Positions 1,461-43,119 of a stretch of 64,000 nt of DNA are shown here, in pieces. The stretch's first letter is position 1, and each line of letters begins with the position of its first letter. Source of the DNA: Syntrophomonadaceae bacterium (GTDB taxonomy: Bacteria; Bacillota; Dethiobacteria; DTU022). The DNA is taken from NCBI GenBank assembly GCA_007119965.1, contig SKOR01000068.1, positions 1 through 64,000 on the forward strand, read 5' to 3'. The position numbers and the translations under genes were made by a program. Under the pieces are notes generated by a model, which was not told the origin of the DNA, ran no database searches, and worked only from the letters and a program-made list of their open reading frames with translations.

Positions 1461-1640
1461 AAAAAACCCCGCTGTGCCGTGGACCGTGGTTTTGAACTGT
1501 TCCCCCGAAAGGTGGGTACCCTCTCACCTGTTTTGCAGGTCCTCTTTTCAAAGGCTGCTGCTCCGCAGCTGAAGTCCGGGTTCCCATTGTAAAAGTGTTA
1601 GCTCAAAACTTATCGGTTGTCACGAACACCGCAGGGCGAT
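1461..1640 (-). ncRNA. ssrS: 6S RNA (SsrS-like)
   Basis: On the minus strand CCCTGCGGTG...(~150 nt)...CACAGCGGGG forms a closing stem followed by T-run; central part GAGCTAACAC...GGGAACCCGG...; lies directly downstream of aspS, as bsrA does in Bacillus subtilis. Confidence 0.75.
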
Positions 1641-1725: not shown

Positions 1726-4700
1726 TTATTCTTCCTCTTCCTGCTTCTGAAGCTTTAATTTCAGCTCCTCCAGTTGTTTACCTGCAACACCCGCCGGGGC
1801 GCCGGTCATCAGGCAGCTGGCTGCAGCCGTCTTCGGAAACGGGATGACCTGCCTGATAGATTCATCCCCCGTAAGCAGGGCGACAAGGCGGTCCAGCCCG
1901 AGGGCAATCCCCCCGTGTGGCGGAGCGCCATAGGACAGGGCCTCGAGCAGGAACCCGAATTTTTCCCTGCTTTCCTCTTCTGAAAGCCCGAGCAATTTAA
2001 ATATGCCGGACTGAACCGTGCTATCGTGGATCCGGGTGCTTCCTCCGCCTATCTCCACGCCATCCAAAACCAGGTCGTAAGCCTGGGCCCGTACGGCCAG
2101 GGGATCGCTCTCAAGCAGGGGCAGATCTTCAACCCTGGGGGCGGTAAAGGGGTGGTGATCAGATTCATAGCGCTGTTCTTCATCGTCATAATGGAACAGC
2201 GGGAAATCGACTACCCAGAGAAAATGCGGTTCAGGTGCGATATCTTCAGGGGCCAGGTGGCGGCGCAGGTAGCCGAGCACATGACAGGTTGTATCCCACC
2301 TGTCGGCGACAAAGAGTAAAACATCGCCCTCTTCAGCTTCCATCCTGCTGGTTATATCCGCCATCAGGGCATCATCAAAGAATTTACTGATCGGTGAACG
2401 CCAGCCGTTTTCTTCAACAAAAACCCAGGCCAGACCCCTGGCGCCAAGTTGACGGGCCAGCAGGGTCAGATCGTCTAAATCCTTGCGGCTCATCTTTTGG
2501 CCGCCTTTTACCCGCAGCCCCTTAACGGCACCGCCGCCCTCCAGGGCAGAAGTAAATACTTTAAACTGGCTCTTAACAGCCAGGTCATTGAGATCAACCA
2601 GTTCCATGGCAAATCGCAGATCAGGTTTATCTGAGCCGAAACGATTCATCGCCTCGCTGTACGGCATGCGCAGAAAAGGCCGTTTAATCTCAACTCCGTG
2701 AATCTCTTTCCAGAGCAGGGCGACCAGCCCTTCAGTAAGGGCAAAAAGATTTTCGATCCCGAAAAAAGAGGTCTCTATATCGATCTGGGTAAATTCCGGC
2801 TGACGGTCGGCCCGCAGATCTTCATCGCGGAAGCAGCGCACTACCTGGAAGTAACGTTCAACCCCGCTGACCATGAGCAATTGCTTGAACAGCTGCGGCG
2901 ATTGGGGCAGGGCGTAAAAGTCACCGGGGTGCGGGCGGCTGGGCACCAGAAAATCCCTTGCCCCCTCAGGGGTGCTGCGGGTGAGCATCGGGGTTTCAAC
3001 CTCCAGGAAATCGTAACGATCCATATAATCGCGGACCAGCTTGACTGCCCGGTGACGCAGCTGCAGGCGGCCGAGCATTTCAGGGCGCCTTAAATCGAGA
3101 TAGCGGTAACGCAGCCTCAGGTTTTCATCAACATTGATATCGTCTTCTATGTAGAAAGGAGGGGTTTTTGAGGTATTTAAGACTTCCATAGCCTCGACCC
3201 GCAGCTCAATCTCGCCGGTGGGCAGGGCAGGGTTGATATTTTCTTCCGATCGCCTGACCACCTCTCCTTCAACGGCAACAACATACTCACTGCGCAGGCT
3301 TTCAGACTCTTCAAATAGCCCGGCACCCAGCTTCTGATCAAAAACCAGCTGCATGACCCCGCTGCGATCTCTCAGGTCGATAAAGATCAACCCACCGTGA
3401 TCACGGCGCCTGCCGACCCAACCGGCCAGCCTGATCCTGCTGTTAACATAACCTGTATTAAGCAGCCCGCAGTAGTGAGTTTTCTTGTCCGGGATATCCG
3501 GGGCAGGCAGGGTTACTTCTGCTTTTTCAGGTGGGCGGACAGCTGCTTTTTCCGCCGGCTGCTCCTGCAGCAGCTTTTCATGCAGGCTTTCACGGGGCAG
3601 TTCCTGCTGCTCACCGCTTTCCATATTGCGCAGGCTTACCACGCCGCGGGCAATTTCATCTTCGCCGATTATCGCTACGTGCCTGTAGCCCTGCCGCCCG
3701 GCATATTTCATCTGCGCTTTCAAGCTGCGCGTCATCATTTCCGTTTCGGCAGCGATACCACGCTGCCGCAGGTCTGAGGCCAGTAGCAGGGATTCTCCCT
3801 CGAGGCCTTCTCCCGCGGAGGCAATGTAAACTGCTGCAGCAGATTCCGGCAGCTGCTTACTCCAGTCCATGGTTAAAAGGATCCTTTCAACGCCAAAGGC
3901 AACCCCAACACCGGGGGTATGCGGCCCGCCGCAGTGCTCTACAAGATGATCGTAACGGCCGCCGCCGCACAACGAAGCCTGGGCTCCAGAAGCGCCGGCG
4001 TTAATTTCAAAAGCTGTCCGGGTGTAATAATCGAGGCCGCGGACGAGGCGGTTGTTCAGGTTATAAGGGACCCCGAGCTTGTTCAACAGGCTTTTAACTG
4101 CAGCAAAGTGGTCGTCGCAGTCAGGACAGAGATGATCGGTCATCCGCGGCGCCGCTTCGACTGTAGCCTGGCAGCTTTCAGTTTTACAATCAAGGACACG
4201 CATCGGGTTATTCCTGTAACGTTTTATGCAGTCTCCGCAGAGCTGTTTTTCGGCCTTTTCCAGGTAAGGCACCAGGGCATCGCGAAACCCGGGGCGGCAG
4301 ACGGGGCAGCCCACACTGTTTAGCTCAATAGAAAGGTTTTCAATCTGCAGCGAACGGAAAAAATTATAACAAAAAGATATGATTTCGGTATCGGCCGCGG
4401 CACTGGCTGCGCCGAAGATTTCCAGGCCAAACTGGTTGAACTGGCGGTAACGGCCGGCCTGGGGGCGGTCGTAGCGGAACATGGGGCCGATATAATATAG
4501 TTTTAACGGCTGAGGCTGCTCCTTGAGGTTATGTTCAAGGTAAGCCCGCGCTACGGCAGCAGTCAATTCGGGACGCAGGGTTAAATCACGACCGCTGCGA
4601 TCTTTGAATGAATACATCTCTTTTGAAACGATGTCGCTATCTTCACCGACACTGCGGACAAAAAGTTCGGTTTGTTCAAACATGGGGGTGCGGATTTCTC

Positions 4701-4809
4701 CAAAACCGTAGAGGCTGCAGAAATCGGAAAACCTCTCCTCCAGGTACTGCCACTTTTTTGCTTCATCCGGTAGTATGTCTCGGGTTCCTCGGGGTGCCTT
4801 GTAGATCAT
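1726..4809 (-). CDS. Fused histidyl-tRNA synthetase - aspartyl-tRNA synthetase (single ORF)
   Basis: 1027 aa. N-term HisRS (PRGTRDILPDEAKKW, LVRGLDYYTRTAFEI, C-terminal anticodon-binding domain); C-term bacterial AspRS (WVGRRRDHGGLIFIDLRDRSG, FRDEDLRADRQPEFTQIDIE, GGIALGLDRLVALLTG). No stop between modules. Confidence 0.93.
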   Translation of the reverse strand: MIYKAPRGTRDILPDEAKKWQYLEERFSDFCSLYGFGEIRTPMFEQTELFVRSVGEDSDIVSKEMYSFKDRSGRDLTLRPELTAAVARAYLEHNLKEQPQPLKLYYIGPMFRYDRPQAGRYRQFNQFGLEIFGAASAAADTEIISFCYNFFRSLQIENLSIELNSVGCPVCRPGFRDALVPYLEKAEKQLCGDCIKRYRNNPMRVLDCKTESCQATVEAAPRMTDHLCPDCDDHFAAVKSLLNKLGVPYNLNNRLVRGLDYYTRTAFEINAGASGAQASLCGGGRYDHLVEHCGGPHTPGVGVAFGVERILLTMDWSKQLPESAAAVYIASAGEGLEGESLLLASDLRQRGIAAETEMMTRSLKAQMKYAGRQGYRHVAIIGEDEIARGVVSLRNMESGEQQELPRESLHEKLLQEQPAEKAAVRPPEKAEVTLPAPDIPDKKTHYCGLLNTGYVNSRIRLAGWVGRRRDHGGLIFIDLRDRSGVMQLVFDQKLGAGLFEESESLRSEYVVAVEGEVVRRSEENINPALPTGEIELRVEAMEVLNTSKTPPFYIEDDINVDENLRLRYRYLDLRRPEMLGRLQLRHRAVKLVRDYMDRYDFLEVETPMLTRSTPEGARDFLVPSRPHPGDFYALPQSPQLFKQLLMVSGVERYFQVVRCFRDEDLRADRQPEFTQIDIETSFFGIENLFALTEGLVALLWKEIHGVEIKRPFLRMPYSEAMNRFGSDKPDLRFAMELVDLNDLAVKSQFKVFTSALEGGGAVKGLRVKGGQKMSRKDLDDLTLLARQLGARGLAWVFVEENGWRSPISKFFDDALMADITSRMEAEEGDVLLFVADRWDTTCHVLGYLRRHLAPEDIAPEPHFLWVVDFPLFHYDDEEQRYESDHHPFTAPRVEDLPLLESDPLAVRAQAYDLVLDGVEIGGGSTRIHDSTVQSGIFKLLGLSEEESREKFGFLLEALSYGAPPHGGIALGLDRLVALLTGDESIRQVIPFPKTAAASCLMTGAPAGVAGKQLEELKLKLQKQEEEE

Positions 4810-4833
4810 CTTCGTTCTCCTCTCCAGTCATCT

Positions 4834-5283
4834 TTAAAATTGCTTCTTGCTGTCCAGCAGTATCGTTACCGGGCCGTCATTATCGACTATAATACGCATC
4901 TCGGCCTGAAAGCGGCCTTTAGCCACGGCAATGCCCTGCCTGCGCAGGTTTTCAGTAAAATGTTCGTATAATTCTTCGGCCTGTTCCGGTGGCGCTGCAG
5001 CAGAAAATCCGGGGCGGCGCCCTTTGCGGCAATCCCCGAAGAGGGTAAACTGCGATATGCTTAGAATTGCCCCGCCGGTATCCTGCACTGAAAGGTTCAT
5101 CAACCCCTCTGTATCTTCAAAAATACGCAGCCCGGCAATTTTACCGGCCAGGTAATCGCTGTCGGCAGGACCGTCTTCCCTGCCGACGCCTAGAAAAACA
5201 ACAAGGCCATCTTCTATCTGTCCTGCTACTTCGGCTTTAACTTCCACCCTGGCTGCGTTAACGCGCTGTATTACTGCTCTCAT
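4834..5283 (-). CDS. dtd: D-aminoacyl-tRNA deacylase
   Basis: 149 aa; MRAVIQRV..., SISQFTLFGDCRKGRRPGF, NDGPVTILLDS. Confidence 0.95.
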   Translation of the reverse strand: MRAVIQRVNAARVEVKAEVAGQIEDGLVVFLGVGREDGPADSDYLAGKIAGLRIFEDTEGLMNLSVQDTGGAILSISQFTLFGDCRKGRRPGFSAAAPPEQAEELYEHFTENLRRQGIAVAKGRFQAEMRIIVDNDGPVTILLDSKKQF

Positions 5284-5303: not shown

Positions 5304-7502
5304 CTAACTTTTAGCGCCGTAAACGTAACGGCGGACAGAGTATATATCTTTAATCTTGCCCAGTTTTGCCATGATCTGATCGAGATGAACCTGATCCCGC
5401 ACTACAAGGGTCATGTGAATAGTTGCATCCTTATTTTTATCGGCACGGGCTGAAACAGCGTTTACTTCAATTTTACTTTCATTGACAGCAGCCATTATAT
5501 CGGCCAGCAGGTTTTTGCGGTCATTGGCGTTGATTTCAATTTCAACCGGGTAGGACGCCCCGGCGGCTTCGCCTTCCCAGGATGCTTCCAGCAGGCGGCT
5601 GTCATCGCCTTTATACTGAGCCAGGTTGGGACAATCGCGGCGGTGTATGGAAACACCGCGCCCGCGGGTCACCAGGCCTGTTATTTGGTCCCCGGGCACC
5701 GGGTTGCAGCAGCGGGCAACCCGCATCAACAGGTCGTCCATACCCTGGATCGTAACGCCCGGTGAATCGTGCTTCGGTTTTTTGACCGGCTTAAACTCGG
5801 GGATAACCTCTTCCGGCTCCCGGTCTTTATTCCTGCGCTGGTATTCCTCACGCATCCTGCTGATCACCTGGTGAACAGAAACCCCGCCGTAACCGACAGC
5901 TGCATAGAGATCGTCCGCTGAAAGCAGGTTGAATGAACCCGCTACATCATCTAAAAGATCATTTTTCAGGTGCAGGCGCTGTTCAACGTTGATCCGCCTG
6001 ATTTCTCTTTCGATCATCTCGCGGCCTTTTTCAACATTCTCCTCGCGGCGTTCTTTCTTGAACCAGGTGCGGATTTTATTTTTGGCATGGGAAGTTTTGA
6101 CAAGCTTGAGCCAGTCACGGCTGGGTGATCCCTGCTTGGAGGTTACAACCTCAACCATGTCACCGGTTTTCAGCTGGTAGTCAAGCGGGACCAGGCGGCC
6201 GTTAACCCTGGCGCCCGTACAGTGGTTACCGATATCGGTGTGGATCTTGTAGGCAAAATCAAGGGTTACAGCACCTGCCGGCAGATCGATAACATCGCCT
6301 TTAGGGGTAAAGACAAAGACTTCATCGCTGAAGAGATCGCCTTTTAGGTCCTTAATAAAGTCGCGGGCATCACGGTAATCGCCCTGCCACTCAATCAACT
6401 GGCGCAGCCAGGTCAGCTTGTCGTCAATGTCGGTTGAATCCCTGGTTTTTTCTTTATAACGCCAGTGAGCGGCAATCCCGTATTCAGCGGTGCGGTGCAT
6501 ATCCCAGGTCCTGATCTGGATTTCGGCCAGTTCGTTTTCAGCAGCGAAAACCGTGGTGTGCAGAGACTGGTACATGTTCGGCTTCGGCATGGCGATAAAA
6601 TCTTTAAAGCGGCCGGGAATCGGTTTCCAGATGGTGTGGACAATACCCAGGGTATGGTAGCAGTCTTTGACCGTGTCGACTATAATGCGCACCGCGGTCA
6701 GGTCGTAAATTTCGTTGATATTTTTGCCCTGTGACTTCATTTTATTATAAATACTGTAGAGGTGTTTCGGACGGCCCTGGATTTCCGCTTCGATGTTGGC
6801 TTCAGAGAGGTAGTCCTGCAGGATCCAGATAATCCTATTGATAAAGTTTTCGCGTTCGCGCCTTTTCTTATCCAGCTTTTCAACCAGCTGAAAATATTCT
6901 TCGGGCTGCATGTAACGGAATGCCAGGTCTTCAAGTTCCCATTTAATCATATAAATCCCGAGGCGGTGGGCCAGGGGGGCATAAATTTCCATGGTTTCGC
7001 GGGCAATTTCTTTCTGCTTATGGGTATTCAGGTAACGCAGGGTGCGCAGGTTATGGGTCCGATCGGCCAGCTTAATTAAAACCACCCTGATGTCCTGGGC
7101 CATGGCGATAAACATCTTGCGGAGTGTTTCCGCCTGCTGCTCTTCCTTGGAGGTAAAATCGAGCCGGCTTAACTTGGTCACACCATCAACCAGGGCGGCA
7201 ACTTCATCACCGAACTCCTCCCGGATGTCTTCCAGGGTCAGGCCTGTATCTTCAACCACATCATGAAGCAGCCCGGCAATAATGGTAACCAGGTCGAGCT
7301 CCAGTTCGGTCAGAATCAGGGCTACTCCCAGAGGGTGGGTAATGTAAGACTCGCCCGATTCGCGCAGCTGCCCTGAATGGGCTTCTACCGAATACAGGTA
7401 GGCTTTTTCAACCAGGGCCCAATCATCCAGATCAGGGTAGTAGCGCTCAATCCTTTTTTTAAGTTCATTCAGTTTTTGTTCTTTAACGGTCATCTTAACC
7501 AT
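5304..7502 (-). CDS. relA: Bifunctional (p)ppGpp synthetase/hydrolase, RelA/SpoT (RSH) family
   Basis: 732 aa; HD domain (HDVVEDT), synthetase domain (GRPKHLYSIYNKM, YQSLHTTV), TGS, ACT. Confidence 0.95.
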   Translation of the reverse strand: MVKMTVKEQKLNELKKRIERYYPDLDDWALVEKAYLYSVEAHSGQLRESGESYITHPLGVALILTELELDLVTIIAGLLHDVVEDTGLTLEDIREEFGDEVAALVDGVTKLSRLDFTSKEEQQAETLRKMFIAMAQDIRVVLIKLADRTHNLRTLRYLNTHKQKEIARETMEIYAPLAHRLGIYMIKWELEDLAFRYMQPEEYFQLVEKLDKKRRERENFINRIIWILQDYLSEANIEAEIQGRPKHLYSIYNKMKSQGKNINEIYDLTAVRIIVDTVKDCYHTLGIVHTIWKPIPGRFKDFIAMPKPNMYQSLHTTVFAAENELAEIQIRTWDMHRTAEYGIAAHWRYKEKTRDSTDIDDKLTWLRQLIEWQGDYRDARDFIKDLKGDLFSDEVFVFTPKGDVIDLPAGAVTLDFAYKIHTDIGNHCTGARVNGRLVPLDYQLKTGDMVEVVTSKQGSPSRDWLKLVKTSHAKNKIRTWFKKERREENVEKGREMIEREIRRINVEQRLHLKNDLLDDVAGSFNLLSADDLYAAVGYGGVSVHQVISRMREEYQRRNKDREPEEVIPEFKPVKKPKHDSPGVTIQGMDDLLMRVARCCNPVPGDQITGLVTRGRGVSIHRRDCPNLAQYKGDDSRLLEASWEGEAAGASYPVEIEINANDRKNLLADIMAAVNESKIEVNAVSARADKNKDATIHMTLVVRDQVHLDQIMAKLGKIKDIYSVRRYVYGAKS

Positions 7503-7733: not shown

Positions 7734-10172
7734 TTAACTGCCGCTGAGATCGTGCAGGTAAGCCGCAATTTCTTCGGAGGAACCGTCAAGGAGGAGACGC
7801 TGAAAGTGCTCACAGCTGTCCAAAAGTTCCATGGCAGCCAGGTAAGTGGGTGATTGACCGAGGCATTCGGGCCAGCTTTTCATAATAGCCACCCTGTCTG
7901 CTGAAAGGCGGCCTTTTTCCAATAGTTTAATTTCAACCAGGATCTTTTCAACCCGCTCCCAAAAGCTTTCGGCAGGCTTGACAGTCAGGCTTTGCCCTGC
8001 CGAACCGGGGAACGTTATTTCCGCAGTTTCAGGGGCGTCCCGGAGCAGGGAGGCAACAATCGTTTCCAGCACTTCCGCCGAGGGCAGTGATAAGTCCGTC
8101 AATTTGCAGTTTTGCTCCTGGTCGCTGTCATTATAGAGCAGGTATACTTTAAGTTTGCCACTGTCAGACCGGTTTTTGAGGATCGGTTCGATAATTTTCT
8201 CATGGAGAGGCAACTCGTAGAGCATCAGCGCTGCTGCATCCGCAGGTAACGCGGCCCCTCCATTCATCGCACCGCTGGTAAGCAGGTGCAGCGGCTGACC
8301 GTCCGGGCAGTTTTCCCTGATCCAGTTAGCCCTTGAAAGTGTGGCCGAGAAAACTATACCCGCCCCTTGTTCCCGCGCGAGCGCTTCTTTCAAAAGCCCT
8401 AGGCGGTTTTCGCTACCGCGGAGATCGATAACTTCAAAGCTGCCGCACGTATAAGTGTCGCTGTAATTGATATCTTTTAATTCAACTTCCAGGGTCTTCT
8501 GTTCGCGGAAGAAACCATTTTTCAACCTGAAGGCGAGGTCAACCCTGCGCCCTTTTTCAAGCTGCGGTTCCAGGTCGGCCGCTGCGAACATGATCGGGGC
8601 AAGGGCTTGCCCTCCTTTCCGCACGCTCAGTTTAAGGTGTTTTTTGCCGGAACCAACCAGTCGCCATGAATCTATCTCCCAATCGCGAAGGCCGAAAAGG
8701 GGCATCGGGTTGGCTGTGCCGAAAGGCTGCAGCCTGTCCAGGGCGGCGGTTAAGTCGAAACCTATTTCAGAGCCGGCCAGCTCCGCATCGATCTGTAAGC
8801 GGGGGGCCAGTACGCTATCATCCAGGTTCAGGCGGGCGTAGTTGTTCAGGCTGTCGCGCAGCTGTTCAATCTTTCCATTCTCGACGGTAAATCCCGCAGC
8901 CTGCTCATGGCCCCCGAAGCGTTCCAGCAAGGGTGCGCTTTCGGCCAGGGCTGCAGTTATGTCGAAGCCCGGCACACTGCGGGCGGAACCCCGCCCGGTC
9001 TCATCTTCCAGGGCGACCAGGACTACAGGGCGGTTGAATTTCTCCACGAGTCGCGAGGCAACAATGCCAATCACTCCGTGATGCCAGCTTTCAGCGGCAA
9101 GGGTAATTATCTTGGTTTCTTCCCTTGAAAACAGCTCGAGGGCTGCTTCTTCAGCCTCTTTTAAAATTACCTGTTCTATTGAACGCCGTTTCTGGTTGGC
9201 TTTATTCAACTGCTCTGCCAGTTCGGCTGCTTTAAGTCCGTTTTTTTCGAGCAGCAGCCGGGCTGCAGGCAGAGCTTCACCCATGCGGCCGGCAGCGTTT
9301 ATCGCCGGGGCAAGGATAAATGACAGGGCGGTGCTGTTAATGCGGTTCCGATCCAGGCGCACTGCCTGGGCAAGAGCTTTAAATCCTGCCCGCCTGAGGC
9401 CGCAGAGCACATCCAGTCCGAGCGAAACGATTACCCTGTTTTCACCGAGCAAAGGCACCACGTCGGCCGCTGTACCCAGGGCGGCCAGATCAAGGAGCTG
9501 TGATGGAAAGCGCTCGCCCGACTTTTCCATCAGGGCGGCAGCCAGTTTAAAAGCGATGCCCGCCCCCGACAGTTCTTTGAAGGGGTAGGGGCACTCTTTC
9601 TGCAGCGGATTAATCACTGCCACAGCGCCTACCGGTTGCCCGAGGGGTTGGTGGTGATCGGTAATGATCAGGTCGAGGCCGATCTCCGCAGCATAGGCAA
9701 TTTCTTCGGCAGCGTTGATTCCGCAGTCAACGGTAACCACGAGAGAGGTTCCGTCTTCCTTAAATTGTGTTAAGGGCTCAATGTGCAGGCCGTAACCTTC
9801 TTCAAAGCGGCTGGGCAAAAAGTAGTCAACCCTGCCGCCGAGCTGGCGGATGGCCTCAACCAGGATCACCGAAGCGGTAATCCCGTCGGCATCGTAATCA
9901 CCGTGGATAATAATCTTTTCACTGCTGCTGATTGCTTCGAGCAGCCGGGATACTGCGCACTCCATGCCAAGCATCAGCCAGGGCGAATGCAGTTGATCCG
10001 CCGAAGGTTGTAAAAAAGTCCCGGCCTGCGCGGGATCGGTAAAACCACGGTTAAGCAGCAGCCGGGCCAGGGCCGGTGGGATATCGATTTCCCGGGCCAG
10101 GTCAGCGGCGCGGGCATCAGCCTGATCCGGCCAGATCCACTGTTTACCTTTCAGACTCATCCGGATCCTCAT
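7734..10172 (-). CDS. recJ: Single-stranded-DNA-specific exonuclease RecJ
   Basis: 812 aa; HGDYDADGITASVIL, VTVDCGINAAEEI, ITDHHQP, GGHEQAAGFTV. Confidence 0.93.
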   Translation of the reverse strand: MRIRMSLKGKQWIWPDQADARAADLAREIDIPPALARLLLNRGFTDPAQAGTFLQPSADQLHSPWLMLGMECAVSRLLEAISSSEKIIIHGDYDADGITASVILVEAIRQLGGRVDYFLPSRFEEGYGLHIEPLTQFKEDGTSLVVTVDCGINAAEEIAYAAEIGLDLIITDHHQPLGQPVGAVAVINPLQKECPYPFKELSGAGIAFKLAAALMEKSGERFPSQLLDLAALGTAADVVPLLGENRVIVSLGLDVLCGLRRAGFKALAQAVRLDRNRINSTALSFILAPAINAAGRMGEALPAARLLLEKNGLKAAELAEQLNKANQKRRSIEQVILKEAEEAALELFSREETKIITLAAESWHHGVIGIVASRLVEKFNRPVVLVALEDETGRGSARSVPGFDITAALAESAPLLERFGGHEQAAGFTVENGKIEQLRDSLNNYARLNLDDSVLAPRLQIDAELAGSEIGFDLTAALDRLQPFGTANPMPLFGLRDWEIDSWRLVGSGKKHLKLSVRKGGQALAPIMFAAADLEPQLEKGRRVDLAFRLKNGFFREQKTLEVELKDINYSDTYTCGSFEVIDLRGSENRLGLLKEALAREQGAGIVFSATLSRANWIRENCPDGQPLHLLTSGAMNGGAALPADAAALMLYELPLHEKIIEPILKNRSDSGKLKVYLLYNDSDQEQNCKLTDLSLPSAEVLETIVASLLRDAPETAEITFPGSAGQSLTVKPAESFWERVEKILVEIKLLEKGRLSADRVAIMKSWPECLGQSPTYLAAMELLDSCEHFQRLLLDGSSEEIAAYLHDLSGS

Positions 10173-24680: not shown

Positions 24681-27131
24681 TCACCTCCCGCACATCTTAC
24701 TAACGATAAAATTGTCAATTACCGAACGCCTGCTCATGCTTTCGCTCTGGCACTGGCAGGCATGGTGGGCCGCTATACAGCTGCCGGCACCTGTTTCTTC
24801 AGGGCCTGCCGCCTCATGGCCGACCACTGAAAAAAGACCCAGGCCACGGCTGAAACGCCCTTCGTAGAGAAATGCTGTCCCGGGATGATCTTTCGAAGGA
24901 CAGGGCCACTGCAGCCCCTGCACGGCCAGCTTTTCGTAAGACATACCGGCGTACTGCGGGGTAAGTGAGGCCATCTCGGCAAAGACATCCTCCGGTCCGC
25001 CGTAATCCCAGTCGAAACCCAGCCAACCTGCCAGCTCGGCAATAATTGCCCAGCCAGGATGAGCTTCACCCGGCGGTTTCACTGCCTGGCGAGTAAGCTG
25101 GACCCGCCGCTCCGTGTTGGTATAGGTGCCCTGCTGTTCAGCAAAAGCGGCAGCAGGGAGAATAACGTCTGCCAGGGCGGCAGTTTCAGTCATGAAGATA
25201 TCCTGGACAACAAGGAAATCGAGATCGCCCAGGAAGCGGGCAGTTTCTGAGTCTTCTCCACCGAGGCAGGAAACAGGGTTTTCATCTAAAATATACATCG
25301 CCTTTACCGGATCCTGGCTGCCTTTTTGAAAGACATCTGCCGCAGAAAGGCCCGGCTCTTCACTGATCTTAACGCCCCAGGAGCGGGAGAATTTTTCACG
25401 GATCGCTTTTTCCTTAACCGGTTGGTAACCGCTCAAAACAGCAGGTAAAGCGCCCATATCGGAAGCGCCCTGCAGGTTGTTTTCACCGTAAGGGAGGTAG
25501 AGCCCCGCCGACTCTTTACCCAGGTTCCCGGTAAGCAGGGCCAAGTTGGCGAGAGCCAATACCAGGCCGCCATTCCCGGCAGAATAATCCATACCAACCG
25601 TGGAAATCACTGCCGCTTTTTCAGCCCCTGCATAGGCCCGGGCGGCGCTGCGCAGGTCATCTTCTCCGATCCCGGTAATTTCGGCGGCGTACCGCGGGGT
25701 ATATTTAGCAACCGCAGACTTCAGCGCCTCAAAACCCTCGGTGCGCTTCTCGATAAAAGTCCGGTCATGCAGGTTTTCTTCAATGATCACGTTGGCCATG
25801 GCGTTGACCAGGGCCACGGCGCTGCCCTCTTGCAGGGGCAGGTAGTGATGCGCCAGGTCGGTCAGCCCGATCGGTTCGGGATCGGCAACTATCAGTTTAG
25901 CCCCTTTCCGAACCGCTTCACGCACCCTGTAACTGATTACCGGATGGCTTTCGGAGGGATCGGCGGCAATGACAAAAACAGCTTGTGTCTCCGAGAGTTC
26001 CCCGATACTGTTGGTCATAGCTGCGCTGCCGAAAGCTTCCATCATTCCGTCCACCGCGGGCGCATGGCAGTGCCGTGTATAGCTGTCTACATTATTTGTC
26101 CCGAGAGAGCGGATCAACTTTTGAAACAGGTAGCTCTCCTCGTTGGTGGTTTTCGGCGAGCAGAGGCCCATGATCGCTTCGCTGCCGTAACGGTCCAGCA
26201 CTTGATCAAGGTTGTCGGTAATTAGGCCCAGTGCTTCTTCCCAGCTCACTTCAACAAAAGCGCCGTTGGATTTGACCAGGGGCCTGGTAAGGCGATCGCC
26301 GCTTTTCAGGTAATCCCAGCCAAATTTACCCTTGACGCAGAGGTGCCCCCGGTTCACCGGGTTTTCTTCTGCGGGGCTGATGCCGATCACTTCATTGTCC
26401 TTAACATGCAGTGTTACATTACAACCGATGCTGCAGTACGGGCAGACAGTTTTTGTTTTCTCCACCTGCCAGGGGCGTCCCCGGCCAAGGCTGTACCTGG
26501 GAATCAGGGCTCCGACGGGGCAGCTGTCGATACAGAGGCCGCAAAAAACACAGGTCGAGTCTTCAATTGCGTCTTCAAAAGGCGGTCCCACATTGGACAC
26601 AAAGCCGCGCCTGGTAAAATCGATCGCCCCTGCGCCAATCACATCCTGGCATTTTCCGACACAAATACCGCAGAGGATGCACTTATTCATATCGCGTACA
26701 AAGAAGGCGTTGGTATCATCATCGGCCAGTTCTTTGACTTCACCGCCAAAGTCGCTATCGGCAACCCCGTAACGGTAGCAGTAATCCTGCAGTTTGCATT
26801 CCCCGGTTTTTTCACAGGTAATGCAGTCCAGGGGGTGGTTGGCTATCAGCAGGGTCAAAATCGCTTTACGGGCATTGATAACCCTTTCAGATTCGGTGTA
26901 AACAACCATGCCCGCCCCGACAGGAGCAACGCAGGAGGCAACCAGGGCCCGCGCTTTCTCAACCTCGACCACGCAGATCCGGCAGGCCCCGTTGGGCGGC
27001 AACTCCGGATCGTAACAGAAAGTCGGGATATCTTTACCCAGCTGCCGGGCCGCTTCCAATATCGTCGTCCCCGGCGCCACTTCAATTTCTCTTCCATCTA
27101 TAGTCAGTTTAATTGCTGACATCAGCTTCAC
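24681..27131 (-). CDS. fdhA: NAD-linked formate dehydrogenase catalytic subunit (Cys type), apparently C-terminally truncated
   Basis: 816 aa; N-terminal 2Fe-2S, His-Cys and 2x4Fe-4S domains (CYDPELPPNGACRICVVEV, CILCGICVGKC, CVFCGLCIDSCPVGAL), molybdopterin domain (CPYCSIGCNV, TRHCHAPAVDG with Cys at the usual Sec/Cys position); ends shortly after LQWPCPSKDHPGTAFLYEGRFSRG. Confidence 0.85.
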   Translation of the reverse strand: MKLMSAIKLTIDGREIEVAPGTTILEAARQLGKDIPTFCYDPELPPNGACRICVVEVEKARALVASCVAPVGAGMVVYTESERVINARKAILTLLIANHPLDCITCEKTGECKLQDYCYRYGVADSDFGGEVKELADDDTNAFFVRDMNKCILCGICVGKCQDVIGAGAIDFTRRGFVSNVGPPFEDAIEDSTCVFCGLCIDSCPVGALIPRYSLGRGRPWQVEKTKTVCPYCSIGCNVTLHVKDNEVIGISPAEENPVNRGHLCVKGKFGWDYLKSGDRLTRPLVKSNGAFVEVSWEEALGLITDNLDQVLDRYGSEAIMGLCSPKTTNEESYLFQKLIRSLGTNNVDSYTRHCHAPAVDGMMEAFGSAAMTNSIGELSETQAVFVIAADPSESHPVISYRVREAVRKGAKLIVADPEPIGLTDLAHHYLPLQEGSAVALVNAMANVIIEENLHDRTFIEKRTEGFEALKSAVAKYTPRYAAEITGIGEDDLRSAARAYAGAEKAAVISTVGMDYSAGNGGLVLALANLALLTGNLGKESAGLYLPYGENNLQGASDMGALPAVLSGYQPVKEKAIREKFSRSWGVKISEEPGLSAADVFQKGSQDPVKAMYILDENPVSCLGGEDSETARFLGDLDFLVVQDIFMTETAALADVILPAAAFAEQQGTYTNTERRVQLTRQAVKPPGEAHPGWAIIAELAGWLGFDWDYGGPEDVFAEMASLTPQYAGMSYEKLAVQGLQWPCPSKDHPGTAFLYEGRFSRGLGLFSVVGHEAAGPEETGAGSCIAAHHACQCQSESMSRRSVIDNFIVSKMCGR

Positions 27132-28965
27132 TCCCCACAGGTGTGATCATGATGCAGTCCTGGCGGCACTTCTCAATACAGCTGCCGCAGCGGGTACAAA
27201 GTTCCTGGATAATTTCATGGGGTTCTTTTTTCTCGCCTTTTATGGCATCTGCGGGGCAGGCCCTGACACAGGCTGTACAGCCGGTACACTTTTCCTCGTC
27301 AATTCTGTATTTAAAGAGCTCCTTGCAGACCCCGGCCCGGCAGAAGCGTTCGTTTATATGCTCCTCATATTCATTCCTGAAGTAGCGTATAGTACTCAGG
27401 ACAGGATTGGGGCAGGTCTGCCCCAGGCCGCAAAGTGAACTGTCTTTAATGCTGCCGGCCAGGCTGTCGAGGACTTCTAAATCACCAGGTTCACCGAATC
27501 CCTCAGATATCCGGTTCAGAATCTCGAGCATACGCTTGGTCCCTTCCCTGCAGGGGGTACACTTTCCGCAGGATTCTTTCTGGGTAAAGCTTAAAAAGTA
27601 GCGGGCCAGGTCGACCATGCAGGTTCCTTCATCCATAACCACCAAACCGCCCGAGCCCATAATCGCCCCGGCCTGATTCAGGGAATCATAGTCGATCGGC
27701 AGATCGATCAGATCAACAGGAATGCAGCCGCCCGAAGGTCCGCCGGCCTGGACTGCCTTAAAATCACGACCGCCCTTGATCCCGCCGCCGACATCATAGA
27801 TAATTTCCCTGATTGTAATACCCATGGGCACTTCGCAGAGGCCAGTATTGCGGACTTTTCCGGCCAGGGCGAAAACCTTGGTACCCTTGCTCCCTTCAGT
27901 GCCGACCTTTACAAATTCGGCCGCCCCGCCTTCTTTCATAATCAGGGGGACATTAGCCAGGGTTTCTACATTGTTGATTGTCGTCGGCTTGCCAAAGAGT
28001 CCAGATTGGGCCGGAAAAGGCGGCCGCGGGCGGGGCATGCCCCGTTTCCCCTCAATGGAGGCCAACAGGGCGGTTTCTTCACCGCAGACAAACGCCCCCG
28101 CACCTTCCTTGATGTTCATTTCAAAATTATACCCGTAGCCGAGGATATTCTCGCCGAGCAGACCGTATTCTTGCGCCTTCTCGATGGCAACCCTCAACCT
28201 TTTGATCGCCAGGGGGTATTCGGCCCGGCAGTATATGTATCCTTCATCGGCCCCGATAGCCCGCCCGCAGATCAGCATACCTTCCAGGATGGCATGGGGG
28301 TCGCCTTCAAGAATACTGCGATCCATAAAAGCACCCGGGTCTCCTTCATCGGCGTTACAGACCACATATTTTTTTGATCCCGGCGCTTTATTGGTAAACT
28401 CCCATTTAAGGCCGGTTGAAAAACCGGCCCCGCCCCGCCCGCGCAGGCCGGCCTGCTTAACTTCTTCACAGACAGCAGGCGGATCCATGGCCAGGGCGCG
28501 GGTAAAAGCGCGATAACCGCCGCGCATAATATATTCATCAATACTTTCGGGATCAATTACCCCGCTGTTTCTTAAAACATTAAATTTTTGCTTGGCATAG
28601 AACGGAATTGTATCGTAAAAGCGGGCAGGCACATCGACATCGGGTCCCTTGTAGAGCAGCCTCTCGACAATTTCACCGCCGACCAGGTGTTTTTCAACCA
28701 GCTCAGCCATGTCCTTCGGCTTCAGGCGGCAGTAAAACACTTCATCGGGGTAAACAACGATAATTGGCCCGACTTCGCAGAAACCGGGGCAGCCGCCCAT
28801 AACCAGGCGGAATTTATCTTTGATGCCCTGTTTTTCGAGCTCTTCGACCAGGGCTTGTTCCACCAGGTGCGAACCTGATGAAAGGCAGCCGGTGGCCCCG
28901 CAAATCATGAGGTGTTTCTCATACAAATTATCCTTACCTCCCTCTTCCAGGAACTTGTTTAGCAA
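27109..28965 (-). CDS. NuoF-like NADH-binding flavoprotein subunit (HydB/FdhB type)
   Basis: 618 aa; N-term thioredoxin-like 2Fe-2S, RGRGGAGFSTGLKWEFT, NADEGDPGAFMDR, CGKCTPCREGTKRM, C-term 2x4Fe-4S. Confidence 0.92.
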   Translation of the reverse strand: MLNKFLEEGGKDNLYEKHLMICGATGCLSSGSHLVEQALVEELEKQGIKDKFRLVMGGCPGFCEVGPIIVVYPDEVFYCRLKPKDMAELVEKHLVGGEIVERLLYKGPDVDVPARFYDTIPFYAKQKFNVLRNSGVIDPESIDEYIMRGGYRAFTRALAMDPPAVCEEVKQAGLRGRGGAGFSTGLKWEFTNKAPGSKKYVVCNADEGDPGAFMDRSILEGDPHAILEGMLICGRAIGADEGYIYCRAEYPLAIKRLRVAIEKAQEYGLLGENILGYGYNFEMNIKEGAGAFVCGEETALLASIEGKRGMPRPRPPFPAQSGLFGKPTTINNVETLANVPLIMKEGGAAEFVKVGTEGSKGTKVFALAGKVRNTGLCEVPMGITIREIIYDVGGGIKGGRDFKAVQAGGPSGGCIPVDLIDLPIDYDSLNQAGAIMGSGGLVVMDEGTCMVDLARYFLSFTQKESCGKCTPCREGTKRMLEILNRISEGFGEPGDLEVLDSLAGSIKDSSLCGLGQTCPNPVLSTIRYFRNEYEEHINERFCRAGVCKELFKYRIDEEKCTGCTACVRACPADAIKGEKKEPHEIIQELCTRCGSCIEKCRQDCIMITPVGSEADVSN

Positions 28966-33796: not shown

Positions 33797-36415
33797 TCAG
33801 CGTGCAACCAGTTCACGACGGGTTTGGAGCAGCATTTGCCAGCTTTGATCGCTTAAGGGACGGTTGAAACTGCGGAAGTTGGCCAGTTTGAAACCGTGCT
33901 CCTCGGCTAAGTACCTGGTCCGCAAAATCGATTCCAGGTTAACTCCTGAAGAGCCGAGACTGTAGTGCTTGTACTGCTGTTCAAGGGCAAGCATCATCGT
34001 TTCAGCCATGCAGGCATAGGCCAGGCCTTCCTCGAAGCCAAAGTCCCAGCCGAGGGAAGGAAGACCCGGTATTTCTACAACCCCGCCGTCGATAACCAGC
34101 ACGTCGGGGCGGGCCTCGTCGACCTCTTCGCTGACATTTGCCGGGCGGGAGATGTCGCAGACGATAGCGCCTGCTTTCAGGTTTCCGGCATGAATCACTT
34201 TTTCTGTGGCACTGGTAGCGCTGATTACTATATCGGCCCTTGCCAGTACGGCATCAATATCGGTAGAGAATTCAATCAGGCCCATACGGTGCCCTTCCCC
34301 TTCGGCAAAAGCTTCGAAGGCTTCCATCGGGGCATCGGGCGCCGGCAGCCCGGAACAATCGGCCAGCCGGCGTCCCATGCTGCCCGGTTTAAGAGTGCGG
34401 CCCTGCTGCAGCAGCGCCGACTGGTAGCGGTAGATTTCTGCGGCCACCTGCTGCAGCCTCTCGCTGGCCGACTTATTATTCGGGTTGCCAATCAGGATCA
34501 GGCTGGGCACTGTTTCTGAGAGCAGAAGTGAAATCCCCCGGCCGATCGACCCTGCGGCGCCGACAATAGCGGCTGTAGTCTGAGAGCGATCAATATGCAG
34601 TTTTTCCGTGGCGGTAGTAACCGCGTCAACAGCCGAGACAACGGTATAGCTGTTGCCGGTGGTAATCGGCACGCCTTCATTTTTCAGGTAGAGCCCGCCC
34701 ATGGAGGCCACGGCGGTGAAAGCCCCCAGTCCGACAATTTTAGCCCCCCGTTCGCGGGCCATTGCTACAGCTGCTTTGAGCTCATTTAAAGCCTGTTTTC
34801 GAGGCATCTGCACAAATTCATCGGTTGTGCGGGGCAGGCCAATGAATTCGCCGTAAGCCGTTTTTCCGGCAGCAGAATTGATTTTTACCCGCCCGGCAAC
34901 GAAGGGCTCGATCATGTCGCCAAACCGGCCGGTCAGTTCGGCCAGCTCTTCTTCGCTGAAGGCAAGCAAACTGTTATCAAACTGGTGATAGCTTTTCAGG
35001 TCGAGAGCATGGATCAGGAAGGCAAAACGACCTTCCGACGGCTCACCGCCCGGGACAGTCTTTTCGGCGGGATAGGGAACAAACTTCGGAAAACGGCCGG
35101 AACTTTCAGGCCTGACCAGGTAAGCCAGGAACTGAGCCGTGTTTCCTTCATTAAGAACCTCGAGCATTGAATCAAGGCCGCGCAGCGCTTCGCGGCACTG
35201 CTCCTCGCTGATGGTCAGCGGCGGTTCCATGCGGATAACGGCGTTGCCGTTTAAGGTCGGGGCAACCCGTATTTTTTCCACGTTTAAAAGATAAGAAGAT
35301 ATTGTCGGGGTCAGCAATTCCTGCTCAGCCATCACACCCAGCAGGCTGCCAGGGAAATATTCACGGTCCATGAAAAACTCAATGCCCAGCATCAACCCGC
35401 GGCCGCGGATTGCGCTGACCAGACCGGGGTATTTTTCCTTCAGCTTCAGCAAACCTTTTTTAAGCAGCTCGCCCCTGGAAATCACATCTTTTAAGATCGC
35501 CCCGTTATTCACTGTCAGCTCTTCAATAACCTGCAGCCCGACCCTGCAGGCCAGGGCATTGCCGGCAAAAGTCGATGAGTGCTTTAAACCGAAGTCCTCG
35601 GTATACGCTTCAGCTGTACTGAGACAGGCGCCGATCGGCATCACACCTCCGCCAAGCGCCTTGGCCAGGACCAGCACGTCAGGAGCAACGTTTTCCTCCT
35701 CGCAGGCAAACAGCGTTCCGGTGCGGCCCAGGCCGGTCTGCACTTCATCAAAGATAAGCAGAACGCCGTACTCGCGGCAGATCTCTTTTACCTCGGCCAG
35801 GTAGCCTGCAGGAGGCTCAACTATGCCTCCTTCACCCTGGATCGGTTCGATAATGAAAGCAGCGTAAAAACCGGGATTTTCGGCCAGTTCATCCCGGAGG
35901 GACCCGCACTCGCCAAATGGAATATGGTTGAACCCTTCGGCGGGGGCATTAAAGGCCGACTGGTAACCGGGGTTGCCAGTGGCCGAAAGAGCCCCGAAAG
36001 TTTTCCCGTGAAAACTGTTATCGGTAGCCAGGATACCCGCACGGCCCGTGGCGGATCTACAGAGTTTAATTGCTGCTTCAACCGCCTCAGCGCCGCTGTT
36101 GGCGAAGGTAACATATTCAAGACCTTCCGGGGCTAACTTAACCAGGCGGCGGGCCAGCTCTCCGGCGGCATCGAGGGCTGACGGCTGGATAAAGTTCGGT
36201 TCAGCCGATTCTCGGTAGCGATCAATCGCATCCCAGATCCGGGTGGGGTTGTGCCCGAAAGGCAGGGCCCCGTAGGCAGCAATACAGTCCAGGTAACGGT
36301 TGCCCGGGTCATCATAAAGATAGCAGCCTTCGCCGCGCACATATTTTTGATCGAGCCTGATGCTTTCCAGCATCTCGCCCAGATATGGATTAACAAAACG
36401 GGTATAATTATTCAT
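33797..36415 (-). CDS. Class III aminotransferase fused to acyl-[ACP] reductase (AAR)-like domain
   Basis: Start at MNNYTRFVNPYL (36415, AGGAGG RBS). N-term PLP domain (TFANSGAEAVEAAIKL, EPIQGEGGIVEPP, IFDEVQTGLGRTG, LAKALGGG). C-term GLGAFTAVASMGG...TTGNSYTVVSAVDAV...AAIVGAAGSIGRG...VIDGGVVEIPG...YACMAETMMLALE. Confidence 0.85.
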   Translation of the reverse strand: MNNYTRFVNPYLGEMLESIRLDQKYVRGEGCYLYDDPGNRYLDCIAAYGALPFGHNPTRIWDAIDRYRESAEPNFIQPSALDAAGELARRLVKLAPEGLEYVTFANSGAEAVEAAIKLCRSATGRAGILATDNSFHGKTFGALSATGNPGYQSAFNAPAEGFNHIPFGECGSLRDELAENPGFYAAFIIEPIQGEGGIVEPPAGYLAEVKEICREYGVLLIFDEVQTGLGRTGTLFACEEENVAPDVLVLAKALGGGVMPIGACLSTAEAYTEDFGLKHSSTFAGNALACRVGLQVIEELTVNNGAILKDVISRGELLKKGLLKLKEKYPGLVSAIRGRGLMLGIEFFMDREYFPGSLLGVMAEQELLTPTISSYLLNVEKIRVAPTLNGNAVIRMEPPLTISEEQCREALRGLDSMLEVLNEGNTAQFLAYLVRPESSGRFPKFVPYPAEKTVPGGEPSEGRFAFLIHALDLKSYHQFDNSLLAFSEEELAELTGRFGDMIEPFVAGRVKINSAAGKTAYGEFIGLPRTTDEFVQMPRKQALNELKAAVAMARERGAKIVGLGAFTAVASMGGLYLKNEGVPITTGNSYTVVSAVDAVTTATEKLHIDRSQTTAAIVGAAGSIGRGISLLLSETVPSLILIGNPNNKSASERLQQVAAEIYRYQSALLQQGRTLKPGSMGRRLADCSGLPAPDAPMEAFEAFAEGEGHRMGLIEFSTDIDAVLARADIVISATSATEKVIHAGNLKAGAIVCDISRPANVSEEVDEARPDVLVIDGGVVEIPGLPSLGWDFGFEEGLAYACMAETMMLALEQQYKHYSLGSSGVNLESILRTRYLAEEHGFKLANFRSFNRPLSDQSWQMLLQTRRELVAR

Positions 36416-36435
36416 GATCAAACCTCCTGTTGAGC

Positions 36436-36455
36436 TGTGCACAATTATGTGCACA
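36436..36455. promoter_or_regulatory. Near-perfect 20-bp palindrome, candidate operator
   Basis: TGTGCACAATTATGTGCACA (8 of 10 half-site positions symmetric), about 20-40 nt upstream of the fusion gene start. Confidence 0.45.
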
Positions 36456-41280: not shown

Positions 41281-43119
41281 ATGCCAAAAGTTAAATTTAC
41301 CCCCCAAAACAAAGTAGCCGAGGTTGAATCAGGCACAAATTTACTTAAAGCGGCAGACCGGGCCGGCCTCTATATTGAAGGCGACTGCGCCGGCAGGGGC
41401 ACCTGCGGGAAGTGCCGGGTTAAGATTACAGAAGGGGACCGGGTCGAGCCGACAACCGCCGAGAAGAAGCATCTTTCACCGGGAGATCTGGAAGCGGGAT
41501 GGGTTCTGGCCTGCCAGAGGGTTTTAGACCGGGATATTACCATAGAAGTACCTATCCAAAAAGATGCTCACCTGCGCAAAACAACCCTGGCCGGCGGAGT
41601 CGAGGAGTTAACTGCAGAACCGCTGGTTGAAAAAACGGCTGTCAAGCTGAGCCGCCCGGCCGTCAAAGACCAGACTGCTGACTTAGAAAGGCTGCTTGGC
41701 CGGCTGGAGAGGCCTGAACTCAACATTGAACTGCGCGAGCTTGCCCACTTACCGACCTTGCTGAGGGATAATGCTTACGCTGTAACAGCAGCTATTGCCG
41801 GTGACAGGATTATTTCGATTGAACCCGGGGATACCACCGATCAGATGTACGGGGTGGCATTCGATATCGGAACTACAACTATAATGGGTTCCCTGCTTGA
41901 CCTGAAAACCGCTTCTGTAATCGCCGTTGCAGCGACGACCAACCCCCAGAACGCTTACGGCGCCGATGTTATCTCACGGATTACCCATGCTTCGGAAAGC
42001 AGGGAAAACTTAAAGCAGCTACAGGAAAAGGTCATTGAAGCTGCCAACAAAATTATTAAAGATCTGCTCAGGCAAACCAAGGTTGCCCGCGACCGGGTTT
42101 ACGAAGTAACCGCTGTGGGCAACACGACGATGAGCCATCTCTTTATGGGCGTTGACCCCACTTTCCTGGCCCCTGCCCCGTTTGTTCCCGCTTACAGCCG
42201 GCCGCTTGAAGTAGAAGCTTCAGAACTGGGCCTGAAGGTCAACCCTGCCGGGCGGGTCACATTTCTGCCCAACATTGCCGGCTATGTGGGTTCGGATACA
42301 GTCGGGGTGATTATCGCCGCCGACATGGACCAGCGTAAAGACAACTGTGCCGCTATTGATATCGGCACTAACGGTGAACTGGTCCTGGCCGCCAACGGCA
42401 GACTGATGGCCTGTTCAACTGCGGCGGGGCCCGCTTTTGAGGGGGCCCAGATTAAACACGGCATGCGGGCGGCAGCCGGGGCAATTGAATCAGTAGATTA
42501 CAAAGAGGGTGAGATTAAGCTGGGCACGATCGACAACCTGCCGGCCTGCGGCATCTGCGGTTCAGGCCTGATTGATGCCGCCGCAGCGCTGCTTGATGCC
42601 GGCTTGATTGAACCGAGCGGACGCTTCGTTAACCCTGAAGAAAACCCTGAAAAGGTTCCCGATCGTTTTAAAAACAGGCTGCGCCGGGGCGAGGGCGGTT
42701 ATGAGTTTGTCCTGGTTACCGCCGAAGACTCCGACATTGACAGCGATATTGTCCTGAGCCAGGGCGACGTGCGAGAACTGCAGCTGGCCAAGGGGGCTAT
42801 TTATGCCGGGTTGATGATCCTGCTCAAAGAAGCTGAAATCGAAATAGATGACCTGGACCAGGTTCTGCTGGCCGGGGCCTTCGGTAACTATGTGCGCAAG
42901 GAAAGCGCCTTAACCATCGGCCTGCTGCCCCAGCTTCCGCCGGAAAAAATAGTCGCCGTCGGCAACGCCGCCGGGGACGGTTCGAGAATGGCCCTGGCTT
43001 CCAAAACAATCCGCGAAAGAGCCGGGAACCTTCCGCACCGGGTGGAACACCTGGAACTTTCAACCCGGCCCGACTTTCAGGATATTTTTATCGAAGCTAT
43101 GGCTTTTCAAAAAATTTAA
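41281..43119 (+). CDS. ASKHA-domain 2Fe-2S protein, RACo/RamA-like (DUF4445)
   Basis: 612 aa; N-term 2Fe-2S (CAGRGTCGKCRVKI...ACQ), GVAFDIGTTTIMGSLLDL, AIDIGTNGELVL, GICGSGLIDA. Confidence 0.9.
   Translation: MPKVKFTPQNKVAEVESGTNLLKAADRAGLYIEGDCAGRGTCGKCRVKITEGDRVEPTTAEKKHLSPGDLEAGWVLACQRVLDRDITIEVPIQKDAHLRKTTLAGGVEELTAEPLVEKTAVKLSRPAVKDQTADLERLLGRLERPELNIELRELAHLPTLLRDNAYAVTAAIAGDRIISIEPGDTTDQMYGVAFDIGTTTIMGSLLDLKTASVIAVAATTNPQNAYGADVISRITHASESRENLKQLQEKVIEAANKIIKDLLRQTKVARDRVYEVTAVGNTTMSHLFMGVDPTFLAPAPFVPAYSRPLEVEASELGLKVNPAGRVTFLPNIAGYVGSDTVGVIIAADMDQRKDNCAAIDIGTNGELVLAANGRLMACSTAAGPAFEGAQIKHGMRAAAGAIESVDYKEGEIKLGTIDNLPACGICGSGLIDAAAALLDAGLIEPSGRFVNPEENPEKVPDRFKNRLRRGEGGYEFVLVTAEDSDIDSDIVLSQGDVRELQLAKGAIYAGLMILLKEAEIEIDDLDQVLLAGAFGNYVRKESALTIGLLPQLPPEKIVAVGNAAGDGSRMALASKTIRERAGNLPHRVEHLELSTRPDFQDIFIEAMAFQKI

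Follow-up and report, generated by a model that had tools for sequence, protein, structure and literature searches.

Does a bacterium make its histidyl- and aspartyl-tRNA synthetases as one protein? The question is raised by the window analysed here, a stretch of 64,000 nucleotides at the start of contig SKOR01000068.1 (assembly GCA_007119965.1, Syntrophomonadaceae bacterium), in which a single open reading frame encodes two whole synthetase modules for different amino acids, an arrangement conserved across 28 genomes of 11 genera. Joined synthetases for different amino acids are otherwise known as a eukaryotic oddity, represented by EPRS. A bacterial fusion on which the supply of two essential enzymes wholly depends would offer a simple system for asking what purpose such a fusion serves, one that is free of WHEP domains and of a multi-synthetase complex. 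Judging from the genomic comparisons below, we consider it highly probable that one chain of ~115 kDa acts as both the HisRS and the AspRS of the cell.

Results

One reading frame holds a complete HisRS and a complete AspRS

The original prediction described a stop-free frame of 1027 codons that contains a full HisRS, an Ala/Glu/Pro-rich linker of ~35 residues and a full AspRS with class II motifs, and we find each of these elements in place (Table 1). The N-terminal part matches the NCBIfam hisS profile TIGR00442 with 523 bits (cut-off 286.75) over residues 4-405, covering positions 1-405 of the 406 in the profile, and the C-terminal part matches the bacterial aspS profile TIGR00459 end to end with 744 bits (cut-off 373.85) over residues 442-1022; the linker lies between the two matches. 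By Pfam, the HisRS core and HGTP anticodon domain come first, followed by three domains of bacterial AspRS: OB-fold, class II core and GAD. Alignment of 27 fused proteins reveals that the class II motif residues are invariant in both halves (R112 and R309 in HisRS, R661 and R974 in AspRS), as is R257-Y262 of the histidine-specific LVRGLDYY motif. The closest solved chain to the HisRS half is 1qe0, to which its class II motif residues align together with those of 1kmm, while the AspRS half has 4wj3, 6hhv and 1efw as solved relatives and its motif residues align to solved AspRS. A search of solved structures found no chain matching both halves.

Table 1. Positions in the window of the fused gene, its parts and its immediate neighbours
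Feature	Position	Strand	Description
6S RNA (ssrS)	1462..1640	-	immediately follows the fused gene on the same strand; Rfam RF00013, 88.5 bits
Fused hisS-aspS gene	1726..4809	-	one ORF, 1027 aa, ATG to TAA
AspRS part (aa 442-1022)	1744..3486	-	OB-fold, class II core, bacterial GAD insertion domain; TIGR00459, PF01336, PF00152, PF02938
Linker (aa 406-441)	3487..3594	-	~36 aa, Ala/Glu/Pro-rich; no in-frame ATG, GTG or TTG
HisRS part (aa 4-405)	3595..4800	-	class II catalytic core and HGTP anticodon-binding domain; TIGR00442, PF13393, PF03129
Shine-Dalgarno GGAGAGGAG	4817..4825	-	strong; precedes the ATG of the fused gene
dtd, D-aminoacyl-tRNA deacylase	4834..5283	-	directly upstream of the fused gene, same strand; PF02580
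relA/spoT-family gene	5304..7502	-	upstream of the fused gene, same strand; TIGR00691, 850 bits

The fused gene is the only hisS and the only bacterial aspS found in the genome

A second copy of either gene, a possibility raised along with the original prediction, was sought by profile search of the contigs of the window's genome, a draft in 120 contigs that is 96.6% complete. Neither a second hisS nor a second bacterial aspS scores over the cut-off. Weaker matches to the two profiles were rejected as second copies, being AsnRS and presumably other class II synthetases. Given that the fused gene carries the sole hisS over the cut-off, the chain very likely charges tRNA-His, and its AspRS half, as the sole bacterial aspS over the cut-off, is the candidate charger of tRNA-Asp. 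As no source of either enzyme other than the fused gene was found, each half should be functional. AsnRS has a gene of its own (G000:C11), and additional supply of tRNA-Asn by the AspRS half was set aside as not needed, although the presence of GatB leaves room for it. The genome has two full-length GatB genes, both over the family cut-off (G000:C91:52029-53456 and G000:C2:37055-38479).

The linker is translated, variable and predicted to be disordered

In 27 of the 28 fused genomes the linker was measured between the end of the HisRS anticodon domain and the AspRS Cys-Gly; it is 36-58 residues long (mean 45.7), with Glu, Ala, Leu, Pro and Gly abundant. The HisRS tail and the AspRS leader of unfused relatives, read from their loci, together come to roughly 25-33 residues, which makes the linker of the fused genes slightly longer than the sum of these two ends. 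Purifying selection on both halves is strong: in 11 close pairs the pooled pN/pS is 0.137 for HisRS and 0.137 for AspRS, and 0.59 for the linker. The two enzymes are thus being preserved, and the linker is translated under loose constraint. An AlphaFold2 model of the chain, modest in quality with a mean pLDDT of 63, was used for the linker only and says nothing on oligomers; in it pLDDT falls below 50 at about residues 418-444, where the linker is predicted to be disordered.

These same properties could be read in another way, namely that the single chain is made and a protease then cuts the linker, leaving ordinary separate HisRS and AspRS as the working enzymes and a fusion that merely co-expresses them. 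The linker is disordered in the model and would expose a stretch that a protease could cut, it evolves fast, and an AEVxLP stretch that recurs in the linkers of the larger of two fused groups could serve as a recognition site. This stretch is, however, absent from g11 and g18 of the smaller group, and we know of no dedicated protease for an AEVxLP-like site, although general proteases might still act. We regard cleavage as distinctly unlikely and prefer the reading in which the chain stays whole.

The window's linker has no canonical internal start

Could free AspRS be made beside the fusion by internal initiation? The window's linker lacks ATG, as had been pointed out from the sequence, and lacks GTG and TTG too. 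The nearest in-frame internal start is an ATG 51 codons before the AspRS Cys-Gly, inside the HisRS anticodon domain, and no SD-like sequence precedes it by the rule that scores 24 of 24 testable N-terminal (hisS) starts of fused genes. In genus g4, four genomes (G034, G060, G062 and G066) carry a GTG or ATG in frame ~13-19 codons ahead of AspRS, preceded by an SD-like sequence, and for this reason free AspRS could be made in them in addition to the fusion. Overall, 11 of 47 start codons in the linkers have an SD-like sequence before them vs 132 of 1320 (10%) in the rest of the ORFs, and g4 accounts for most of this mild excess. Such candidate positions vary between genera, whereas the SD-like sequence at the hisS start is present in all 24 testable cases. 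Taken with the bare linker of the window, this makes internal initiation as a supply of free AspRS very unlikely, and the single start of the fused chain remains the favoured source of both enzymes.

The fusion recurs in 11 genera

HisRS and AspRS share one open frame in 28 genomes, the window's included, all from the window's family of anaerobic bacteria (genera g1, g2, g3, g4, g5, g7, g9, g11, g13, g15 and g18, loci read), and none of the 28 fused frames has a stop codon in the linker. In G025 (g5) the pieces lie on two contigs, one of which holds the HisRS end and the whole AspRS in a single frame. The named records of fused loci are metagenome-assembled genomes (MAGs) from several projects, labelled Syntrophomonadaceae, Bacillota or Firmicutes bacterium, and no cultured member was seen among them; several bear sediment isolate names, which we take to be those of soda-lake surveys. 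An error of assembly or sequencing, by which a stop was lost or two genes were merged, is conceivable for a draft in 120 contigs but has a negligible chance of explaining the frame, given that 27 other genomes show the fusion too, with divergent linkers, in MAGs of several projects and with high synonymous divergence among the fused genes. Since the same fusion occurs in those 27 genomes, chance or artefact is excluded. The proposal of a natural covalent HisRS-AspRS fusion is thus supported by its spread over 11 genera and several projects, by purifying selection in frame and by the conserved class II motifs.

The fusion arose inside one family, once or twice

In the other families of the order hisS and aspS are separate and usually adjacent, and within the window's family g12 and g10 keep them separate. 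The hisS stop of g10 overlaps the GGAGG that precedes the aspS ATG, itself located 10 nt further on. In g6, g8 and g17 the loci meet contig ends or lack sequence, and these three genera were left out of the fused or separate call. Among the matches listed from 399 genomes sampled evenly over the phylum, fusions occur only in the window's family, and the whole-length matches listed outside it all carry stop codons. The earlier expectation that adjacency is usual and fusion is not standard holds in this sample, among the matches listed. Five candidates for an independent fusion, with a long AspRS frame or odd matches (G417, G092, G188, G443 and G381), are not fusions once the loci are read; in G417 the long AspRS frame runs over hisS in another frame. 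The comparison of loci indicates that an ancestral tandem hisS-aspS pair became one frame within the window's family and has been kept as such in at least 11 genera.

How many times did this happen? In a tree built on joined HisRS and AspRS, g12 lies outside, g10 is sister to the smaller fused group of g2, g11 and g18 (96/89), and the larger fused group (100/100) stands apart from g10 and the smaller group. Given this placement of g10, either fusion happened twice, or it happened once and was followed by one re-separation. The AU test does not reject a single fused clade (p 0.09 for the joined tree and 0.17 for HisRS alone); for AspRS alone the value is 0.05, from a tree with a bad row (the wrong fragment L093). 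The first residues of AspRS are PPGCGELRA in g11 and g18 and mostly KTHYCG in the larger group, and the linker also differs between the groups, differences that would fit two events. The trees thus point to an origin of the fusion inside the window's family, once or twice, with two events slightly better supported.

Two lineages have no bacterial aspS that could be found

In g16 (G029) hisS stands alone, and a profile search of the genome did not find a bacterial aspS. A 6S-like sequence, identified by eye, comes shortly after hisS (L103, about 2050-2190), and since it follows hisS, aspS seems to have dropped out between the two. An archaeal-type AspRS (TIGR00458, over the cut-off) lies elsewhere in the g16 genome. 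Genus g14 presents the same pattern in fragments, with an archaeal-type AspRS (TIGR00458) and no bacterial aspS found; the loci in the two genera are L207 and L208 (G021 and G029) and L209 (G019). It is probable that in both genera a horizontally transferred archaeal-type AspRS has replaced the bacterial aspS. Either these lineages lost the AspRS half of the fusion or they branched off before the fusion. Together with the neighbouring lineages that have tandem genes, they make the order of events testable.

Discussion

The fusion could have arisen by a simple route, in which the hisS stop was lost and the short spacer came to be used in frame. Each half would then fold as a normal class II homodimer, and a flexible linker would allow two chains to join at both interfaces, so that a particle of two chains would contain two active sites of each enzyme; should the pairings differ, longer chains would form instead. 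Each half would charge its own tRNA as usual, with no need for a new catalytic activity. The simplest consequence would be a fixed 1:1 stoichiometry set by the single translation start. A more far-reaching proposal is that the fusion makes a bacterial multi-synthetase particle, in which HisRS and AspRS dimers share a single or a polymeric assembly, that such a particle emerged twice in parallel in this family, and that physical coupling, beyond co-expression, was selected. We offer this tentatively and think it rather unlikely.

How does this protein compare with known systems? A search of openly available literature returned no fusion of HisRS with AspRS, and no bacterial fusion of two complete synthetases of such kind. 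The best 25 NCBIfam matches of the fused protein include no bifunctional HisRS/AspRS model. The automatic pipeline of UniProt labels some proteins 'multifunctional fusion protein', and unstudied HisRS-AspRS entries may be among them. Metazoan EPRS is described as a two-synthetase fusion (PMC4394549, PMC11580382), and the part of a 2024 survey drawn on here names two enzymes that have a pair of catalytic domains, EPRS and a parasite TyrRS, and contains no HisRS-AspRS form (PMC11580382). EPRS1 is the closest likeness in that two complete synthetases for different amino acids are joined by a linker in one chain, and its later fission is known in some nematodes (PMC4394549). It differs in being eukaryotic, in joining GluRS (class I) to ProRS (class II) through a folded linker of WHEP repeats, and in belonging to a multi-synthetase complex, whereas the fusion described here is bacterial, has two class II halves and a short linker that is predicted to be disordered. 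Pfam reveals no WHEP domain in it, and its modules are HisRS and AspRS, which places it outside the EPRS family.

Among bacterial arrangements, the tandem hisS-aspS pair of Bacillota, the ancestral state, has the same two genes in the same order, but as two frames separated by a stop, each with its own start. The alpha-beta fusion of GlyRS that is found in some bacteria and chloroplasts, according to the same part of the survey (PMC11580382), differs in that two subunits of one enzyme are joined. The NCBIfam family PRK12820 (bifunctional AspRS/GatC) also fuses a bacterial AspRS to a protein of the aminoacyl-tRNA pathway, but there the partner is an amidotransferase subunit, and the fused protein scores 628 vs a cut-off of 1379.

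Other genes in the window merit mention. An AcsV-like corrinoid protein (41281-43119, plus strand) and Fdh-alpha/NuoF-like subunits (24681-28965, minus strand) suggest Wood-Ljungdahl metabolism, acetogenic or acetate-oxidising. RecJ (7734-10172, minus strand) is 812 residues long, with a RecJ profile match that ends at residue 567 and ~245 C-terminal residues that have no Pfam match. A further two-part frame of 885 residues (33797-36454, minus strand) combines a class III aminotransferase (PigE-like, residues 37-430) with a C-terminal part that carries a weak Shikimate_DH (NAD-binding) match at residues 731-781.
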